22,414 bases of DNA. It comes from a virus. Under the pieces are notes generated by a model that did no database searches, had not been told where the DNA came from, and worked only from the letters and a program-made list of their open reading frames with translations. Positions 2,565 through 18,173 of this stretch are shown one piece after another. The stretch lies in the IMG/VR virus record IMGVR_UViG_3300030117_002483, positions 1 to 22,414 of that record, one strand, 5' to 3'. The position numbers were made by a program, and so were the translations under genes. Every line of letters starts with the position of its first letter. Positions within the stretch are counted from its first letter, which is position 1.

Positions 2565-2811
2565 GCAGTTTTTTCTGTATTTGGTTTATTTGAAAGTTAT
2601 ATTTAGTTAATTCTAGTTTCTGTTTAACAGACAATTCATAATTACCCTCGTATGTAACGTGGGCTGTGTAGTTATCTTTTATAGTTATATGATGCTCTAC
2701 TCCTCTAAGAGTGTGATCTAAGAATGTTCGCATAAGTTGTTTACACTTCCAATCTCTTATCTTTTTAAGGTTACGCTTGTCCTGTGTACTTCTTGGGATA
2801 ATTGGTTTCAT
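2515..2811 (-). CDS. Hypothetical basic protein, 98 aa
   Basis: A 98-residue protein with a strongly basic N-terminal third (KPIIPRSTQDKRNLKKIRDWKCKQ is cut here to its character: nine Lys/Arg in the first 25 residues) and a more neutral, helix-prone C-terminal part ending in acidic residues. The ATG overlaps the stop of the gene 2808-3056 as ATGA, and a GAAGG sequence upstream may aid initiation. It is the last gene of the minus-strand unit that contains the ribbon-helix-helix-like protein. The basic start suggests nucleic-acid contact, which is inference. No family recognised. Confidence 0.65.
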   Translation of the reverse strand: MKPIIPRSTQDKRNLKKIRDWKCKQLMRTFLDHTLRGVEHHITIKDNYTAHVTYEGNYELSVKQKLELTKYNFQINQIQKKLLSQFSHADVEAAILDD

Positions 2812-3056
2812 GCTTTGTTAGCTTTTCTACCTTCAATTCTTTTACGAACAGATTTCTGCCATACAACTATATCTTCTGCCTTAGCCATGTCATAAACAGA
2901 CTTAGGGTATGCTCGCTCCAGTTCTGAGTAGATTAAGTTTCTAACCCAGGCTGTAGCTTTGATACCCTCTTTGTCTGCCAACTCTTGAGCCAAATTAGCT
3001 CTATTTGGATCGACTAATACTTGGAAGTAAGTTTTGTTGCCGTGAACGATAGCCAT
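2808..3056 (-). CDS. Ribbon-helix-helix-like putative DNA-binding protein, 82 aa
   Basis: The N-terminal half has the layout of ribbon-helix-helix (CopG/Arc-type) regulators: a beta-strand-like KTYFQVLVD, a first helix (NRANLAQELADKEG), a turn (IKAT) and a second helix (AWVRNLIYSELERA). The remaining 30 residues are basic (VRKRIEGRKANKA). RHH proteins bind DNA as dimers through the paired strand, usually as repressors. The gene overlaps the following gene by 4 bp and is preceded by the extended -10-like box at 3077-3087. It could control this or neighbouring phage units. The assignment rests on pattern and size only. Confidence 0.5.
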   Translation of the reverse strand: MAIVHGNKTYFQVLVDPNRANLAQELADKEGIKATAWVRNLIYSELERAYPKSVYDMAKAEDIVVWQKSVRKRIEGRKANKA

Positions 3057-3076
3057 GAAATAACCTGTCTTGTACT

Positions 3077-3257: not shown

Positions 3258-5089
3258 TAGTGCACCTCCCTCCATGTTTTACCTATCTGTACTTCTGCTA
3301 ATGCAGGTATTTCACCTAACCATAGAGATTCAGATAGTTCCATAACTTCTTTCAGTGTTTTAGCCCACTCTTCTGCGTGTTCTTCACGAACCAAAAGAAG
3401 TATCTCATCGTGTACTGCTGCTGCAATCTTTACAGTATCTTCACCAGCCTCTTTGACCTTAGACCATATCTTTCCTAGTGCACATTTAAGAATAGCTGCA
3501 CCTGCACCTTGTATGGGTGTGTTACATCTAACAGTAATTCTGTTAAGATCACCTTTTAGAAATCTTCTCATGCCAGACACAGGAACCCTAGTCTCAGCCC
3601 AGTCATCATCTTTAGTCTCTTTTGCTTCAAGATAATTCTTATTCTGCCAATCTCGAATACCACTATAGGCATTTAGCCAGTTGTCACGAACTTTACCTGC
3701 TTCATCAAGCGTCATCAATACCCCACTACTACCTGCGTAGTTACGTAGACCTTCCGAACCAGCTCCGTAAAGTAAACCAAAATTAGCTGATTTAGCTATC
3801 TGCCTATCGCAACCCATCTGCTCGGCAGTGTAATCATGTAAATCTGCACCATCTTTAAATGCTTTTATCATGTTCTTGTCATTGGCAAGTGCAGCAGCCA
3901 GTCGTAACTCCATCTGTGAAAAGTCAGCATCAACAATCAACCAACCTTCTGGGGCTTCAACACACTGTCTAAACTCAGAGTCTCTAGGTATCTGTTGATT
4001 ATTGGGTTTGATACTGGACATTCTTCCTGTATCTGCTCCAAGTTGCATATAAGATGCCCTAACAAAACCATCATCGGCCATCTTTTCCTGGATACTGGCA
4101 AGCATCTGTCTACGCTTCTCTGTCTTTTTCCAATTCATAAGTGTTTGGATCGCTTCAGAATCAGCAGCACATTTACGCAACGCTTCTCTAGATACAGATT
4201 TTTTACCTTTACTATCTGTGGGTGAATACTTTAGTAGTATCTCCAGCTTTTCTAGTAACTGCTTGGAGCTTTTTATATTGAAGCCTTTATACTTTTTAGT
4301 ACCTAAACGAACAGATCCTTCGTCTTTCGCACGTAAATTAAACTCTCCATCGTCATCCCGTGGTAGTTTCTGATCTTCTGGTAAAGCATTGTCTAACTCA
4401 CGTATAAACTCTTTACCCATCTCTTTAGCATCATCTTCATAATCTATAAGACATTGCTCTAGTGATTTTTTATTCCAAGGTAAACCAGTTCTCCACATTT
4501 GAGCCATAGCTGGAAGTGCATTACACTCTAGAGTAAATGCCTTGCCTAATCTTGCTGAAGCTATCTTGTAGTTTAATGTGGCATCAAGTTCAAGCAATAC
4601 TTCAATATCAGTAGCAGCATACTCAAGTTGTTCTTTAGTTAGTTTTTCTAAACTCCAGTCTGACCTCTGCTGTTCCTTAGATACTTCTCTATTTAAATGA
4701 CGTAAAGCTACATCAGCTAAACCATGTTTAACTTGCGGAATACCATTGGTAAGTAATCTGCTGGCTATCATGCTGCATCTAACAAGACCACTGGGATAGA
4801 TGTCGTGTTCCTGTAACCAGCCAAGATCGAACACTGCATTGTGAGCAAGCCAGTGCCTCTTCATACTGCCAAAGAAACGTATAAGATAATCCCAATCTTT
4901 ATCCACTAGGTCAAAGCAATCTATCACCACAATGGATCGTGATGAATAGCTGCCTAACTGAAGCAGACGTAACTTACCTTTCTCTGGTTGTAGTTGTAAG
5001 GTTTCAGTATCAAACGCAATGCTGTGTGCTGTATGAAGTCTGTAAAGTTCTTTGATACCGTAATATACGGTGTAATTTTGTGAGGTCAT
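3257..5089 (-). CDS. Family A DNA polymerase with 3'-5' exonuclease domain
   Basis: Replicative phage DNA polymerase, 610 aa, slightly shorter than T7 gp5 (704). The N-terminal 3'-5' proofreading domain (about residues 20-175) keeps its motifs: ExoI FDTET with D27 and E29, ExoII HNAVFD with D88, and ExoIII YAATD with Y157 and D161. There is no 5'-3' nuclease domain. The polymerase domain (about 190-610) has motif A VDADFSQMELR at 386-396, motif B R429-x3-K433-x3-F437-G-x2-Y441-G, and motif C HDE at 560-562. The position equivalent to E. coli F762 is Phe (F437), the usual state outside the T7/Taq-Tyr type. All catalytic residues are present, so it should be active. It is the lead gene of a short unit with its own TGTGCTACATT box 27 bp upstream. 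Confidence 0.97.
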   Translation of the reverse strand: MTSQNYTVYYGIKELYRLHTAHSIAFDTETLQLQPEKGKLRLLQLGSYSSRSIVVIDCFDLVDKDWDYLIRFFGSMKRHWLAHNAVFDLGWLQEHDIYPSGLVRCSMIASRLLTNGIPQVKHGLADVALRHLNREVSKEQQRSDWSLEKLTKEQLEYAATDIEVLLELDATLNYKIASARLGKAFTLECNALPAMAQMWRTGLPWNKKSLEQCLIDYEDDAKEMGKEFIRELDNALPEDQKLPRDDDGEFNLRAKDEGSVRLGTKKYKGFNIKSSKQLLEKLEILLKYSPTDSKGKKSVSREALRKCAADSEAIQTLMNWKKTEKRRQMLASIQEKMADDGFVRASYMQLGADTGRMSSIKPNNQQIPRDSEFRQCVEAPEGWLIVDADFSQMELRLAAALANDKNMIKAFKDGADLHDYTAEQMGCDRQIAKSANFGLLYGAGSEGLRNYAGSSGVLMTLDEAGKVRDNWLNAYSGIRDWQNKNYLEAKETKDDDWAETRVPVSGMRRFLKGDLNRITVRCNTPIQGAGAAILKCALGKIWSKVKEAGEDTVKIAAAVHDEILLLVREEHAEEWAKTLKEVMELSESLWLGEIPALAEVQIGKTWREVH

Positions 5090-5115: not shown

Positions 5116-5126
5116 AATGTAGCACA
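5116..5126 (-). promoter_or_regulatory. TGTGCTACATT box upstream of DNA polymerase
   Basis: Minus-strand TGTGCTACATT, an extended -10-like sequence identical to those at 9196-9206 and 12623-12633. It lies in the 43-bp gap between the unknown gene 5133-5828 and the polymerase start at 5089. The -35 region is weak. It suggests the polymerase has its own promoter as well as any read-through. Confidence 0.5.
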
Positions 5127-9195: not shown

Positions 9196-9206
9196 TGTGC
9201 TACATT
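9178..9206 (+). promoter_or_regulatory. Promoter of the ssDNA-binding-like gene
   Basis: TTGCCA (9178-9183), 17-bp spacer, TACATT (9201-9206), the -10 preceded by TGTGC to give TGTGCTACATT. The predicted start lies about 30 bases before the ATG at 9243. The TTG at 9189 that extends the frame lies inside this promoter and cannot be the start. Confidence 0.7.
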
Positions 9207-9242: not shown

Positions 9243-9842
9243 ATGCCTTTTGTTTCAAAAAGAGCCAGTGAAGATGCTTCCAACTCTGGAGCGTCTCGTG
9301 ACGGCTACCTAAATCCACACAACTTAGATGATGGCGACAAAGTTCGCTTTAGTCTACTCCAAGAAGCACCTTGGGAATGTTTCTTGTTATGGGGTCATGA
9401 AGATGGCAACATAAAAGCTAAAAAGCCATTCAGATTTGCTGATGATCCTAGCCCAGAGGATATAGAACACAAACTTGGTGAAAAGTATGTAAGACCATTG
9501 AATAGAGATGGTACTGCACCTGAGCCAGTTAAGTTAGAGCAATGTGTGGCTGTTTACAATCACGAAATGGAAAGAGTACAGGTTCTAGCCTGGACACAGA
9601 AAACCATTACAAGTGCCTTTGATGCAATCAGTCAACTAGAGGATTATGAAGATTCTTTCTTAGACATTGATTTCATCCTATCTCGTAAGGGTACAGGAAC
9701 TAACACTGAGTACAACCTTACACCTCTCAACAGAAAGAAAGGCTTGACTACCACTATTGATGAAGAGTGGGCAAAGGTCAAAAAGACTTTCAAGCTAGAA
9801 AGACTTTTAGATGGTGGTGATCCATTCAAAGAATCTGACTAA
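9243..9842 (+). CDS. Putative phage single-stranded DNA-binding protein
   Basis: A 199-aa acidic protein that resembles ssDNA-binding proteins of phages. The core (CVAVYNHEMERVQVLAWTQKTITSAFDAIS is abbreviated here: VAVYN...QVLAWTQKTI) is OB-fold-like beta sequence, and it carries the pattern ISRKG-T-GTNTEYNL (here LSRKGTGTNTEYNLTP) that is typical of Gp2.5/SSB-like phage proteins. The C-terminus is acidic (KESD), as in SSBs that recruit replication partners. It would coat exposed single strands during replication and recombination. Start chosen at the ATG at 9243 because the promoter lies between this and the upstream TTG. A clean terminator follows. It is monocistronic or feeds the nuclease gene by read-through. 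Confidence 0.7.
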   Translation: MPFVSKRASEDASNSGASRDGYLNPHNLDDGDKVRFSLLQEAPWECFLLWGHEDGNIKAKKPFRFADDPSPEDIEHKLGEKYVRPLNRDGTAPEPVKLEQCVAVYNHEMERVQVLAWTQKTITSAFDAISQLEDYEDSFLDIDFILSRKGTGTNTEYNLTPLNRKKGLTTTIDEEWAKVKKTFKLERLLDGGDPFKESD

Positions 9843-12132: not shown

Positions 12133-12295
12133 TATTAAAATCAATAAATTTTCTAAATAAGGATTCAAAAGCATTTAACAATACAGTCTTATTATCTGGA
12201 TCGGCTATTGAATAACAAGCTGCAAGGGCCTGTTCAAAACTACCCCCGAACCTATCCATATTTTGGATGGCTGTATAAATTTCGTATTTATCCAT
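12125..12295 (-). CDS. Tiny hypothetical protein, 56 aa
   Basis: A 56-codon frame (MDKYEIYTAIQNMDRFGG...) whose ATG shares a base with the upstream stop (TAATG), preceded by GAGGAG about 10 bases upstream, a good ribosome site. It overlaps the following gene by 8 bp. The sequence looks like two or three short helices and holds one cysteine. The overlaps and ribosome site support translation; no family recognised. Confidence 0.65.
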   Translation of the reverse strand: MDKYEIYTAIQNMDRFGGSFEQALAACYSIADPDNKTVLLNAFESLFRKFIDFNNG

Positions 12296-12597
12296 TAACT
12301 TATCTCCTCATTATCTAATTCCTGTATCGTTGGTTCTCTCCAAAATCCTACACTGGATGTTGATAGTAAATTATCATTATCTATTGAACATTCAATAGCA
12401 AATAAGTTACATTTCTCAACTGATTTACCATCAAAATACTGTTCAATCCTTTCAACATTACTAGGATAGTTGTCCTCAGCAGTCCAACAGTCAAAACAGG
12501 CTAGTTTAGCCTCAGCCATTGTACTGGCTACAACTTCAAAGGTCTCAATCATAGTATTATGAGTGACAACCTTAAATAATTTTTTGGGTGTGTCCAT
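12295..12597 (-). CDS. Hypothetical protein, first gene of the eight-gene early-type unit, 100 aa
   Basis: A 100-aa mixed alpha/beta protein (MDTPKKLFKVVTHNTMIETF...) with four cysteines and an acidic C-terminus. I recognise no motif. It stands first behind the promoter at 12623-12651 and probably sets the level of all eight genes down to 10729. The seven successors overlap or follow within 2 bp, so the whole is one unit. Confidence 0.65.
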   Translation of the reverse strand: MDTPKKLFKVVTHNTMIETFEVVASTMAEAKLACFDCWTAEDNYPSNVERIEQYFDGKSVEKCNLFAIECSIDNDNLLSTSSVGFWREPTIQELDNEEIS

Positions 12598-12622: not shown

Positions 12623-12651
12623 AATGTAGCACAGAAAAAATATTTTATCAA
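12623..12651 (-). promoter_or_regulatory. Promoter of the eight-gene minus unit
   Basis: TTGATA (minus strand, 12646-12651), 17-bp spacer, TACATT (12623-12628), the -10 preceded by TGTGC. This matches the box at 9196-9206. Transcription should begin about 20 bases before the ATG at 12597. Confidence 0.7.
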
Positions 12652-12920: not shown

Positions 12921-12949
12921 TTGACATTATTGTGCTACATGTGTAATAT
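12921..12949 (+). promoter_or_regulatory. Strong promoter for the DUF932 gene
   Basis: TTGACA (12921-12926), exactly 17 bp, TAATAT (12944-12949). The spacer contains TGTGCTACAT (12931-12940), the box that elsewhere forms the -10. Here it lies between -35 and -10, so it may be an operator or an alternative -10. Start of transcription is about 25 bases before the ATG at 12980. Confidence 0.75.
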
Positions 12950-14236: not shown

Positions 14237-14266
14237 TTGACAATGTACTACAGTAGTCTTTATACT
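14237..14266 (+). promoter_or_regulatory. Promoter with ACTACaGTAGT palindrome in the spacer
   Basis: TTGACA (14237-14242), 18-bp spacer, TATACT (14261-14266). The spacer holds a perfect 11-nt palindrome ACTAC-A-GTAGT (14248-14258), part of a TGTACTACA word that recurs at 16325. It should drive the pair 14294-15009. Confidence 0.65.
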
Positions 14267-14293: not shown

Positions 14294-14536
14294 ATGACTA
14301 AACGAAATTTTGCTACATCTGGAACTGGTAAGGCCAGACTATCCCCAGAGACAGAGGCATTGCATAATCGAACTATCAACGAAAATGCTTTACTAAATAT
14401 GGACTGGTTCCATAAATTACCAGAGCAGGGTCAGATGGGTCTGGTTATTAGAATTGCACCTCTACACTATTCTGCAATAGTTCATGAGGATCTAGTTAAG
14501 GTTTATGAAAATGAAGTTAAGAGGTTTGTAAAATGA
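14294..14536 (+). CDS. Hypothetical protein, 80 aa
   Basis: An 80-aa basic protein (MTKRNFATSGTGKARLSPE...) with no recognised motif. The N-terminus is Lys/Arg/Thr-rich; the rest looks helical. It is the first gene behind the 14237 promoter and overlaps the next by 4 bp (ATGA). No ribosome site is visible before the ATG. Function unknown. Confidence 0.65.
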   Translation: MTKRNFATSGTGKARLSPETEALHNRTINENALLNMDWFHKLPEQGQMGLVIRIAPLHYSAIVHEDLVKVYENEVKRFVK

Positions 14537-15009
14537 GAGAGCCTAGAACTTTTAAGCAATTAGCTGACCATCCACACGTATCATCAGCACACACTGAGGG
14601 CAATGACCCTCAGTGGGGTACGGACTATTGGGTGTATTTAGAGTTTCCATATATTAGTCCTATGACTGAGACCCAAACAATTCATGAGTATGGAATGAAA
14701 GATACCTTAAGAGAATTTAAGAATAGGGAACTCAACTATGCTTATTTTCTATCAGAGGACTGGATCGGTAGAGCACCCAAGCCACCTGAGCAGAAACAGC
14801 CTACAGAGGGTCAACTTGAATTACCTCTGGAACAGATTAAATATCAGGAAGATAAAAAAGCATATCAGGATAAACTTTCAAAAATCTGGTCCGACTGCTT
14901 TATTCATTCCATTAAGAATGACCAGAGTCATTTAAATAAGTTGATGAAAATTAAAAATGATTTTCACAGAGGCATATTTCCTGATTGGAGGAACTATGAA
15001 AAATATTAG
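14533..15009 (+). CDS. Hypothetical protein, 158 aa
   Basis: A 158-aa protein with an aromatic N-terminal domain (HPHVSSAHTEGNDPQWGTDYWVYLEF) and a Lys/Glu-rich helical C-terminal half with a Pro/Gln linker (APKPPEQKQPTEGQLELP). I do not recognise it. Its TAG stop lies inside the first copy of an 11-bp tandem repeat that runs into a terminator. It is the second gene of a two-gene unit. Confidence 0.65.
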   Translation: MREPRTFKQLADHPHVSSAHTEGNDPQWGTDYWVYLEFPYISPMTETQTIHEYGMKDTLREFKNRELNYAYFLSEDWIGRAPKPPEQKQPTEGQLELPLEQIKYQEDKKAYQDKLSKIWSDCFIHSIKNDQSHLNKLMKIKNDFHRGIFPDWRNYEKY

Positions 15010-15065
15010 CCACTGATTAGCCACTGATTAGCCACTGATTAGCCACTGATCGGTGGTTTTTTATT
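15006..15065 (+). repeat. Four tandem 11-bp repeats (TTAGCCACTGA) leading into a terminator
   Basis: Four perfect head-to-tail copies of TTAGCCACTGA (15006-15049), the first containing the stop of the preceding gene. Then comes TCGGTGGTTTTTTATT, where CCAC of the last copy pairs with GTGG (15040s-15050s) ahead of a T-run, giving an intrinsic terminator. Each copy offers a CCAC, so the hairpin could form with earlier copies too. Confidence 0.8.
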
Positions 15066-15331
15066 ACTGGAATGTGAGACTCAAATAAGATTTACTGGAC
15101 AGTCTCAATATTTTCTCAGGTGAGTCTCATTTACTGGTAGATTTGTCTTAAGGTGTGTCTCATAGTAAACAGTTAATAATCCTATAATTTTAGAGTGCTA
15201 CACGTGTGTTTGTACCTGACCAAAATAAGGTTAATTTTAGCTATTTAGTAAATCAGAAAGTCAGGCTATATCTTGAGTCTCAAGCGATATAATTAAGAAT
15301 CCTATAATTTAAAATTAGTCCTGATCTGGTC
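15066..15331. other. Repeat-rich noncoding region
   Basis: No gene of note on either strand across about 265 bp. It carries AGTCTCA words (15101, 15123, 15276) plus TGAGACT (15075) and a GTCTCA at 15157, a direct repeat AATCCTATAATTT at 15178 and 15298 (120 bp apart), an imperfect hairpin TATATC-TTGA-gtc-TCAA-GC-GATATA around 15266-15291, and an AGTGCTACACG word (15194-15204) close to the TGTGCTACATG boxes. It is AT-rich. It could be a control region or a replication origin; the sequence alone does not decide. Confidence 0.5.
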
Positions 15332-15360
15332 TTGACATGTAGCACAATAGAGGCTATATA
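15332..15360 (+). promoter_or_regulatory. Promoter with TGTAGCACA in the spacer
   Basis: TTGACA (15332-15337), 17-bp spacer, TATATA (15355-15360). The spacer begins with TGTAGCACA, the reverse complement of the TGTGCTACA box, so here the box lies in the spacer and in opposite orientation to the promoter. This supports an operator role at this site. It drives the unit beginning at 15388. Confidence 0.75.
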
Positions 15361-15387: not shown

Positions 15388-15624
15388 ATGGCCACCCAAG
15401 CAAAACACATTTGGCACAATGCCGAACAGATGCACAAAGTAATTAAGGAGGAAACAGCCGCTAACTCTGGCTACTTTGATGAGCCACCTGTAAAAAAGGT
15501 TGTTATTGAAGAGGGTCCAGATGGTAGGCAACAGGTCTACTATGAAATGCCCCCCAGCCAGTGGGCTGTAGATGTCCTTATTAATGAGGCAAGAAACAGC
15601 CAAGCAAAAGGAGGTACATTCTAA
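15388..15624 (+). CDS. Hypothetical protein, 78 aa
   Basis: A 78-aa protein from ATG 15388 (MATQAKHIWHNAEQMHKV...); a GTG two codons earlier is also in frame. No motif is recognised. The middle is acidic and Pro-containing (GYFDEPPVKKVVIEEGPDG). It is first in a unit with the 107-aa gene, which begins within one base of its stop. It carries more GC-rich codons than the preceding genes. Confidence 0.65.
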   Translation: MATQAKHIWHNAEQMHKVIKEETAANSGYFDEPPVKKVVIEEGPDGRQQVYYEMPPSQWAVDVLINEARNSQAKGGTF

Positions 15625-15947
15625 TGACAGTCGCAACCTACCCAAACAGATATTGCTCAGACCTTAAGAGTGGCTGGTGCATCAGGACTAAATACAAAGG
15701 CCCCACCGATTACAGGGGGCCACGCATCCACGCAACAGTCCAGAGAGACACCAACACACTATGGGAAGTAGCACTTGAGCCTAAAAGTGAATTGGAATCA
15801 GTGGACAATCACCGCAGGGCTGCCCAGCTAATGATAGACACATGGGACTTTAAAGAGTACCACCCCAATATGAAAATTTTTGCTTACGGTTTTGACTGTT
15901 CATCTGGTTACTATTTCCTAGTCAACACCCCAGCAGAAATAGCCTAG
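15624..15947 (+). CDS. Hypothetical protein, 107 aa
   Basis: A 107-aa protein with four cysteines and many aromatic residues (GWCIRTKYKGPTDYRGPRIH; GFDCSSGYYFLV). It looks like a small compact beta-rich fold, but I recognise no family. A strong ribosome site (AAAGGAGGT) lies about 9 bases before its ATG, which shares one base with the upstream stop. GC content is visibly higher than in most of the window. Confidence 0.7.
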   Translation: MTVATYPNRYCSDLKSGWCIRTKYKGPTDYRGPRIHATVQRDTNTLWEVALEPKSELESVDNHRRAAQLMIDTWDFKEYHPNMKIFAYGFDCSSGYYFLVNTPAEIA

Positions 15948-15984
15948 TTTTTATCTTCACACATCACAGCAACCTCTTAAACAC

Positions 15985-16191
15985 ATGACCCGCCCAAGCA
16001 ACAGCCACCGCCCCCAGAGATCAACAGGCCCCCGCCCTCAAATCCAAGCTTATACACTGGCCCTGTCTTTGGTCTCTCTGGTGCTGGCTAGTGCCTACAC
16101 TGGAGCGTCCCCACAGTATGAGCAATGTCTCAGGGAGGCCACAACAGCCCGCCAGCAGACAGAGTGCCACGTCACCCACTTAGGCAGATAG
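15985..16191 (+). CDS. Small secreted or membrane-anchored protein, 68 aa
   Basis: A 68-aa protein with a Pro/Arg-rich N-terminus, a hydrophobic segment (about residues 22-39, YTLALSLVSLVLASAYTG) and a short hydrophilic tail with two cysteines (QYEQCLREA, QTECHVTHLGR). It reads as a signal peptide or single membrane helix, with a tail in the periplasm. It is followed after 40 bp by a strong terminator. It is the GC-richest gene in the window. Function unknown; start at 15985 has no visible ribosome site. Confidence 0.5.
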   Translation: MTRPSNSHRPQRSTGPRPQIQAYTLALSLVSLVLASAYTGASPQYEQCLREATTARQQTECHVTHLGR

Positions 16192-16232: not shown

Positions 16233-16266
16233 CCCCCCACCGCACAGGGGGGCGGGTTTTTATTTT
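16233..16266 (+). terminator. GC-rich intrinsic terminator
   Basis: CCCCCC (16233-16238) pairs with GGGGGG (16247-16252) over an 8-nt loop, followed by CGGG and TTTTTATTTT. It ends the unit 15388-16191. From here to 16317 the sequence turns strongly AT-rich with no gene. Confidence 0.75.
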
Positions 16267-16317
16267 GTAAAATTTTTTGTAGATGATGGGGAACCTACTG
16301 ATAAATCAAGGCATAAA

Positions 16318-16346
16318 TTGATTATGTACTACAATATTATTATACT
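16318..16346 (+). promoter_or_regulatory. Weak plus-strand promoter facing the next
   Basis: TTGATT (16318-16323), 17-bp spacer, TATACT (16341-16346), with TGTACTACA (16325-16333) in the spacer. A transcript would be antisense to the gene at 16368-16817 and could continue to the terminase. It overlaps the stronger minus-strand promoter at 16339-16367. Confidence 0.4.
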
Positions 16347-16367
16347 AAACTACTACAATAGTGTCAA
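16339..16367 (-). promoter_or_regulatory. Perfect consensus minus-strand promoter with no gene downstream
   Basis: TTGACA (minus strand, 16362-16367), exactly 17 bp, TATAAT (16339-16344): a full match to the sigma70 consensus. It begins directly after the stop of the gene 16368-16817 and points left, into AT-rich sequence with no open frame on the minus strand until the plus-strand terminator at 16233-16266. Direct repeats TACTACAATA at 16327-16336 and 16351-16360 overlap it. Confidence 0.7.
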
Positions 16368-16817
16368 CTAATCTTTCTTCTCTTCTACCTTAATTGATAG
16401 TTGTGGAGTCTTAAGATTGATAGTCTCTTCGCTCTCCCCTAGTACTTTACCCAGTGAATCCAGTATTTGAGCAGCAGTCTGGTACTGTCCTCTCTTAACA
16501 GCCTTGTTAAAGAGATTCATTCTCATTCCCTGGAGTCGCCCAATCATCTTCTCTCTATCTTTATTCCAGTCCTCATCGTTCCATATCTTTACTTGCTTCC
16601 AATCTTCCCAGGCTGTCCACACTGAAACATTTTCCTTAACTGCATGATCCAGCACTAATTGTCTTGTAGTTAGACCCTCTATCTGTCTTTTATACAACTT
16701 CTGCTGTCTTGCTTCTATAACTGCTCGACTATTACGCCTTCCAGATATACCAAGACCTTCTTTTGTCTTAGGTGCATTTGGGTTGTCTGCGTTTGGGTGA
16801 AAGTATGCTTGAGCCAC
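16368..16817 (-). CDS. Terminase small subunit-like protein
   Basis: A 149-aa mostly helical, charged protein starting at GTG 16817. The N-terminal part is basic (GLGISGRRNSRAVIEARQQ), the middle has helix-turn-helix-like spacing (LTTRQLVLDHAVKENVSVWTA), and a long helix follows. The C-terminal helix KRGQYQTAAQILDSLGKVLGES resembles the late segment of terminase small subunits and related DNA-recognition proteins, so it probably recognises the packaging site for the large subunit. Against this, it is encoded on the opposite strand to the large subunit, with divergent start regions 100 bp apart. It could be a different DNA-binding protein. Clear signature residues are lacking. Confidence 0.55.
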   Translation of the reverse strand: MAQAYFHPNADNPNAPKTKEGLGISGRRNSRAVIEARQQKLYKRQIEGLTTRQLVLDHAVKENVSVWTAWEDWKQVKIWNDEDWNKDREKMIGRLQGMRMNLFNKAVKRGQYQTAAQILDSLGKVLGESEETINLKTPQLSIKVEEKKD

Positions 16818-16916: not shown

Positions 16917-18173
16917 ATGAGTGCAGCTACAACCGAAAATTTAACGCTTAGATGGGCACAGGGGGAGGTGTTCAACGCACAAAACAGATTTAGAGTCCTT
17001 GTAGCTGGCAGAAGATTCGGAAAATCTTATCTTTCCTGTATAGAACTGGTAAAAGCAGCAATAAATCGCCCAGGTGAAACCTATTTCTACTGTGCCCCAA
17101 CATATCGCATGGCAAAAGACATCGCCTGGAAGGAACTAAAGAAACTCGTACCAAGAGAATGGATACAGTCAAAAAATGAAACCGACCTAAAAATAGAACT
17201 AATCAATGGATCGCTAATCGAACTCAAAGGCACAGAAAACGCAACAACCCTGCGTGGCCGAAGCTTGGCTGGAGTAGTACTTGATGAGGCAGCCTTTATG
17301 GATGCAGAAGTATGGTTCGAGGTAATCAGACCTGCCCTCGCAGATAAACAGGGTTGGGCTTTGTTTATTTCTACACCAGATGGTACAGCCTCCTGGTTCT
17401 ACGATTTATGGTGTTACGTTCCACAAGATGAAACAGGTGATTGGAAACGCTGGAGCTTCACCACCATCGAAGGGGGAAATGTTGCAAAAGAGGAAGTTGA
17501 AGCAGCCAAGGCCCAGTTAGACCAACGAACATTTAAGCAGGAGTTCGAGGCCAGCTTCGAGAATCTCACGGGTCTCGTTGCAGTCTCATTTTCAGACTCC
17601 AATGTTTCTGAAGAGGCAAATGACCTACAGTTCCTTCCACTCCTTTTGGGAGTTGATTTTAACGTAGATCCACTTTGCGGGATCTGTGCAGTACGCCATC
17701 AAAATTATTTATACGTATTTGACGAGATAATTCTCACTGGTGGAGCAACTACCTGGGATTTTACAGAAGAAGTAATAAACCGATACGGGGTAGACAGACG
17801 AATAATTGCTTGTCCTGACCCCACAGGTGCAGCCCGAAAAACAGCAGGAGTAGGTTCAACTGACCACAACATCCTCCGAAGAAGCGGATTTACTGTTTCG
17901 TCACCTAAAGCACCTTGGAAAATACGTGACAAAATAACCTGTGTTAACACAGCACTATTTGATGCAGCCGAGGAAAGACGCACACTAATTCATCCAAGAT
18001 GTAAAGAATTAATAAAAGCACTCAGAACCCTTACTTATGCACCCAATACAGGCTTGCCTAACAAGAATCTGGGAGTTGACCACGCTTTTGATGCTTTCGG
18101 ATATTTATGTTTACAACAATTTAATCTTGTAAAACCAGAGACATTAGGGCAGACTGGGTTTAGAATATACTAA
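16917..18173 (+). CDS. terL: Terminase large subunit
   Basis: The packaging motor: ATPase plus nuclease that cuts the concatemer and pumps DNA into the prohead. The N-terminal ATPase carries Walker A GRRFGKS (residues 31-37), a typical R/K-rich variant in terminases, and Walker B VVLDEA (120-125), followed by the coupling-like STP (152-154). The C-terminal RNase H-like nuclease holds the three acidic positions: D247 in GVDFNVDP, D301 in CPDPTG, and D389 in GVDHAFDAFGY. At 418 aa it is compact but complete. The ATG follows TACTAC without a ribosome site. It opens the plus-strand head-gene block. Confidence 0.95.
   Translation: MSAATTENLTLRWAQGEVFNAQNRFRVLVAGRRFGKSYLSCIELVKAAINRPGETYFYCAPTYRMAKDIAWKELKKLVPREWIQSKNETDLKIELINGSLIELKGTENATTLRGRSLAGVVLDEAAFMDAEVWFEVIRPALADKQGWALFISTPDGTASWFYDLWCYVPQDETGDWKRWSFTTIEGGNVAKEEVEAAKAQLDQRTFKQEFEASFENLTGLVAVSFSDSNVSEEANDLQFLPLLLGVDFNVDPLCGICAVRHQNYLYVFDEIILTGGATTWDFTEEVINRYGVDRRIIACPDPTGAARKTAGVGSTDHNILRRSGFTVSSPKAPWKIRDKITCVNTALFDAAEERRTLIHPRCKELIKALRTLTYAPNTGLPNKNLGVDHAFDAFGYLCLQQFNLVKPETLGQTGFRIY

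Follow-up and report, generated by a model that had tools for sequence, protein, structure and literature searches.

There is a perfect consensus promoter close to the large terminase gene (terL) of an uncultured marine phage, and it points into gene-free DNA towards a short bipartite element that is conserved beside terL in many related phages. The element is most likely a packaging-initiation site, which we consider likelier than a small-RNA gene. Our tentative reading of the whole arrangement is that a promoter under the control of a phage repressor sends RNA polymerase across this pac- or cos-like site. The stretch analysed, referred to here as the window, is an entire virus record of 22,414 bases, and its relevant features are collected in Table 1. 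Among the papers listed by a literature search, none described either the element or the operator regulon associated with it. A sharply defined DNA element and an operator regulon occur in a widespread marine phage family that probably infects Prochlorococcus and for which the collection searched includes no closely related cultured phage. If the element is a packaging site, its arrangement would represent an unusual link between the control of transcription and the changeover by which replication gives way to packaging.

Table 1. Features of the window that bear on the terminase-proximal promoter, the conserved element and the operator motif.
Feature	Position	Strand	Remarks
82-aa ribbon-helix-helix-like protein, candidate repressor	2808..3056	-	AlphaFold2 pLDDT 88, strand-helix-helix
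Operator	5118..5126		Upstream of DNA polymerase gene
Operator	9196..9204		Between divergent primase and SSB-like genes
Operator	12625..12633		Upstream of minus-strand gene 12295-12597
Promoter TTGACA-18-TATACT	14237..14266	+	Operator TGTACTACA in spacer, 14244-14252
Promoter TTGACA-17-TAATAT	12921..12949	+	Operator TGTGCTACA in spacer, 12931-12939
TTGACA followed directly by operator TGTAGCACA (15338-15346)	15331..15359	+	Ahead of 15388-16191
Intrinsic terminator of the 15388-16191 unit	16233..16259	+	GGGGGG arm is the C run of the element
CCCCCC, second half of element	16247..16252	-	CCCC 38-40 nt after box in 120/124 relatives
Spacer, mostly variable sequence	16253..16290	-	Length constant, at 38-40 nt among relatives
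Box GATTTATCAGTAGGTTC, first half of element	16291..16307	-	Conservation starts about 9 nt earlier, at about 16316
Operator TGTACTACA / TGTAGTACA	16325..16333		Just downstream of -10 of minus-strand promoter
Consensus sigma-70 promoter	16339..16367	-	Predicted start about 16332
Partial second operator copy, TATTGTAGTA on minus strand	16351..16360		Inside promoter spacer
149-aa helix-turn-helix-type protein, candidate TerS	16368..16817	-	Ends at promoter; beside terL in relatives
TerL, large terminase	16917..18173	+	Pfam Terminase_6N 1.7e-16; phrog_2 2.3e-44

The minus-strand promoter had been described in an earlier note as perfect, and it does match the consensus TTGACA-17-TATAAT at 12 of 12 positions (16367-16339). 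Its hexamers have the 16-18 nucleotide spacing of a sigma-70 promoter and occur beyond chance: there is no other TTGACA-N15-19-TATAAT in the 22,414 bases, the mean in shuffled sequences is 0.04, and such a match turns up in 4 of 100 shuffles. The same note was right that the promoter begins directly after the stop of the terminase-small-like gene, which ends at 16368, and that there is no minus-strand frame ahead, because no ORF of at least 20 amino acids starts between 16332 and 16246. The first minus-strand ORF that is encountered is a 21 amino acid frame at 16245-16180. The direct repeats reported at this location are exact copies of TACTACAATA at 16327 and 16351, and they are better read as copies of the operator discussed below than as an unrelated feature.

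A face-to-face promoter on the plus strand had also been proposed. A match at 9 of 12 positions is indeed present, but we set it aside as weak and not generally conserved, since it was found in 18 of the 65 relatives that carry the minus-strand promoter. Matches of this grade are hardly above chance between 14000 and 18500 (12 found versus 10.0 expected). At the same sensitivity there are 2 matches between 15900 and 16400 versus 0.6 expected, one of which is the minus-strand promoter itself.

Conservation in related phages, which had been named as a check on the promoter, speaks in its favour. We examined 241 loci, of which 184 carry the box in a terminase context when up to 4 mismatches are tolerated, and removal of short-context loci and identical 100-mers leaves 124 unique relatives. 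These were searched for promoters of the TTG[AT]C type with a spacing of 16-18 nucleotides and within 80 nucleotides of the box, wherein TTG.C and TA...T were imposed. A promoter of the form TTGAC-N17-TA...T is located 27-32 nucleotides before the box in 65 of the 124, compared with 47 of 5,962 windows drawn at random from these loci (0.8%). One further relative with TTGATA (L094) was left out of this count and was scored as promoter-bearing on the TerL tree. The spacer is 17 nucleotides long in all 65, the fourth base is always A, and the sixth base is A in 89% by weight. The promoter is shared by relatives whose TerS proteins are as little as 55% identical. For the 57 promoter-bearing relatives with at least 900 nucleotides of downstream sequence, the median longest ORF is 0 amino acids on the promoter strand and 145 amino acids on the opposite strand. 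Convergent genes face the promoter in nearly all relatives, and which genes these are differs from one relative to the next. Judged by its sequence and distribution, this is supported as a genuine, conserved and strong promoter that points into gene-free DNA.

The promoter is missing from one clade (L009-L051), from L105-L119 and from more distant relatives, although the element is found beside terL in the first two groups as well. A quick TerL tree with 102 rows requires at least 8 changes of the promoter trait, at least 4 of which are forced by supported branches, and therefore loss or gain of the promoter has happened repeatedly, with the element retained. Because the promoter is missing from about half of the relatives, its transcription cannot be essential for the element.

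The element is about 70 base pairs long, and the promoter, where present, always faces its box. Between the box and the C run there are 22 interior columns that are nearly free to vary, and conservation stops abruptly after the C run, at column 60. A box and a CCCC held at fixed spacing, with a free interior and an abrupt end, form the pattern of a DNA site that is bound by protein. A search of all viral contigs for the exact box yielded 115 matches, with one exact match per contig, and 97 of the 109 identifiable loci are in a terminase context. At least 7 of the other 12 are copies of one gene from an unrelated phage group, and another (L276) looks like the same element cut by the end of its contig. 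Where TerL is present in the locus of an exact box (83 loci), it starts 61-611 nucleotides away on the opposite strand; the corresponding range for boxed relatives where measurable, for which terminase context was one inclusion condition, is 38-773 nucleotides, again on the other strand. There are three loci (L225, L236 and L254) wherein a weaker TerS match (32-57%) is located on the other side of the element, which indicates that the element keeps its place by terL and not by terS. A contig from a single-cell Prochlorococcus assembly carries a diverged box (5 mismatches) with 39-nucleotide spacing after TerS. No such element was found in P-HS2, a cultured Prochlorococcus siphovirus (TerL 27%), or in the stretches fetched from S-2L, HTVC202P and a Vibrio phage.

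Several other interpretations of the element were considered and rejected. Reading by eye, the box is not coding sequence, since substitutions fall at all codon positions and stops occur. A sigma-54-like reading of the other strand (GG-N10-GC) fails by eye because its spacing is mostly one short, and cyanobacteria are not known to have sigma-54. The variable spacer has short AT palindromes in many sequences, with no single fixed centre that would define a dyad. An attachment site or host target was also dismissed, because neither the box nor its complement occurs in 151 Prochlorococcus genomes at up to 1 mismatch and the integrase family PF00589 was not found in 7 related contigs. The reversed control pattern of the box has several matches in the same 151 genomes. 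It is possible that Prochlorococcus genomes avoid the box, bearing in mind that these genomes are related to each other. Variable direct repeats of the GCGGTGG type follow the C run in many relatives (L013-L051), and in the window TGGGCGGT occurs twice after the CCCC of the element.

For a DNA site that lies upstream of terL and keeps its internal spacing, the simplest explanation is a packaging-initiation site. The element is a conserved, single-copy site next to the terminase genes, as pac and cos sites are, and it may be where terminase loads or cuts. Three contigs end within the element (L080 and L278 at column 24, L109 at column 25), and these ends would fit a cut site and, equally well, an assembly break at the boundary between conserved and variable sequence. 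Counted against a packaging site is the observation that the opening position varies among contigs of similar full length.

The element resembles P22 pac and lambda cos in being a single-copy, asymmetric DNA site by the terminase genes that is bipartite with fixed spacing. P22 pac is located inside the terS gene, and neither P22 pac nor lambda cos is known to include a promoter that fires across the site. The 12-bp consensus of P22 pac is given as AAGATTTATCTG in one report (PMC11226127), and in a comparison made by eye and after the fact it agrees at 10 of 12 positions with TAGATTTATCAG, a sequence present in many relatives. However, the most conserved part of the box, AGGTTC, is not shared with P22. 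The orientation is also contrary: the box and TerL are on opposite strands, so that packaging would point away from terL if the site were read like that of P22. We therefore treat this resemblance as a lead only. The phiOR promoter of T7 transcribes across the genome-joining region, and transcription in that phage is tied to concatemer processing. The arrangement proposed here shares with this junction a promoter that crosses the site. T7 differs in using its own polymerase and terminal repeats, whereas the promoter here is of the host type and has an operator, and terminal repeats were not seen.

The putative operator is the near-palindrome TGTRSYACA, which has 7 sites in the window compared with 0.81 expected and a maximum of 4 in 300 shuffles. 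All 7 are intergenic, although 13.6% of the window lies between genes. The operator or a partial copy of it is carried by each of the three strict promoters (12921, 14237 and 16339), and repeats of the TATTGTAGTA/operator kind are present in all promoter-bearing relatives. In some relatives the motif sits on the -10 itself (for example, G007 at 4573 and G013 at 9473). Because the motif shifts relative to the promoter, we infer that an operator is a better interpretation for it than a component of the promoter. TGTRSYACA also exceeds shuffled expectation (means 0.5-1.4) in related contigs G001 (9 sites), G005 (5), G020 (4) and G024 (4), and it does not in G002, G003, G004, G006, G008 and G023.

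A plausible repressor for this operator is the protein encoded by ORF 2808-3056, whose predicted model has the strand-helix-helix fold of the ribbon-helix-helix (RHH; Arc/MetJ) class. The top rows of a Foldseek comparison of this model with the PDB are Arc, NikA, CopG and antitoxins (probability up to 0.99), and most high-ranking matches are RHH proteins, with weak E-values of 0.36 and above. The ORF has no Pfam family match, and only near-operators, at 3070 and 3079, are located upstream of its gene. Among 24 related records searched, which are mostly fragments, 10 contain a homologue. Many intergenic copies of one operator that overlap promoters are likewise characteristic of the mycobacteriophage L5 and L1 regulons, and as in Arc-type repressors, the candidate repressor has a predicted Arc fold. 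In contrast to the near-palindromic motif here, the L1 operators are described as asymmetric (PMC1934351). Also unlike the L5/L1 case, no integrase was found in the 7 contigs mentioned above.

The element is the only constant thing that is transcribed, and it persists independently of the promoter. These observations lead us to propose repressor-controlled transcription across a packaging site. Host polymerase with sigma-70 would initiate at the minus-strand promoter, under the control of the phage's own repressor. Perhaps early in infection, with the repressor off, transcription across the element keeps terminase away or remodels the site. Later, the repressor would close the promoter and packaging could start. 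That polymerase traffic itself, once the repressor turns it off, decides when terminase may start on the replicating genome is a speculative extension that we hold to be doubtful.

The best surviving alternative is that the locus is the gene for a small or regulatory RNA, whose 5′ part includes the conserved box and pairs with RNA or binds a protein. This we judge to be unlikely. A conserved promoter does face conserved sequence at an almost constant distance with no ORF, and one 2,029-base contig (L287), which we take to be possibly from an RNA data set, ends in 17 A residues on the promoter's strand 49 nucleotides after the box. Nevertheless, the discrete small RNA that had been predicted finds no match in the evidence. 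The GC-rich hairpin at 16233-16252, previously put forward as its terminator, has a T run on the plus strand only and is therefore an intrinsic terminator for the plus-strand unit, not for the RNA made from the promoter. Intrinsic terminators on the box strand within 350 nucleotides are found in 2 of the 65 promoter-bearing relatives. There are no conserved pairs in 54 sequences, the stability of the RNA from the window is unremarkable (z -0.55), and there is no Rfam match. We thus rejected a small RNA with a shared fold or terminator. In addition, the box is retained in relatives without the promoter, and it is absent, in either orientation, from the 151 Prochlorococcus genomes.

Two further alternatives are improbable to a similar degree. 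The first is a replication origin of the R-loop or transcription-activated type, for which T4 oriF and the T7 primary origin are models, wherein a promoter is followed by an AT-rich unwinding element. The promoter, AT-rich spacer and gene-free location agree with this idea, and operator control would time its firing. In G008 the minimum of cumulative GC skew (39,408) is near the element (39,676). However, G001, G003, G004 and G005 have no such turning point at the element, and with 1 of 5 contigs in agreement we discarded GC skew as evidence for an origin. The element also tracks terL rather than replication genes, and the promoter is missing in about half of the relatives. The second is that the promoter and operator form a fence that only blocks convergent plus-strand read-through into the terminase genes. 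The convergent genes noted above are as expected for such a role, and terminators on the plus strand are frequent at this location (26 of 65), but a fence leaves unexplained both the conserved box at fixed spacing and its retention without the promoter.

Least probable is the earlier suggestion of antisense control of the 15388-16191 unit, since an RNA of 70-110 nucleotides from 16332 would end at 16262-16222, short of 16191, and promoter-bearing relatives do not share the genes that face it; an RNA longer than about 140 nucleotides would overlap the 3′ end of ORF 15985-16191. For the 107 amino acid ORF 15624-15947, only one relative was found in the viral contig collection.

The assignment of the window's terminase genes and host draws on related contigs. 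ORF 16368-16817 is a probable small terminase, judged only by position and fold type. It has no Pfam or PHROG terminase match and no match in the phage collection, and its predicted model is helical (pLDDT 71). Identification by fold was set aside, since the TerS of G20C is only at rank 5, with a probability of 0.14 that is not significant. A 41,278-base contig holds a region matching the window, with a TerS that is 98% identical. The single-cell Prochlorococcus assembly includes a 41,291-base contig with relatives of TerL (81% identity) and the portal protein (94%), and therefore the host is probably Prochlorococcus or a near relative, as indicated by this one contig. No cultured phage is close, the best TerL identity being 43% among the 20 matches listed. 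A phage contig of the same family that has both promoter and box (L142) is located within a SAR202 MAG, which is probably a binning error.

There are additional repeats elsewhere in the window. Four tandem copies of the 11-base unit ATTAGCCACTG are located at 15005-15059, where they span the end of ORF 14533-15009 and continue into a plus-strand terminator hairpin. The long intergenic stretch at 15075-15290 includes a 37-nucleotide imperfect repeat ending in TCCTATAATTT, as well as three occurrences of the palindrome-like TGAGACTCA/TGAGTCTCA (in the region of 15075, 15122 and 15274), which possibly represent a second type of operator.
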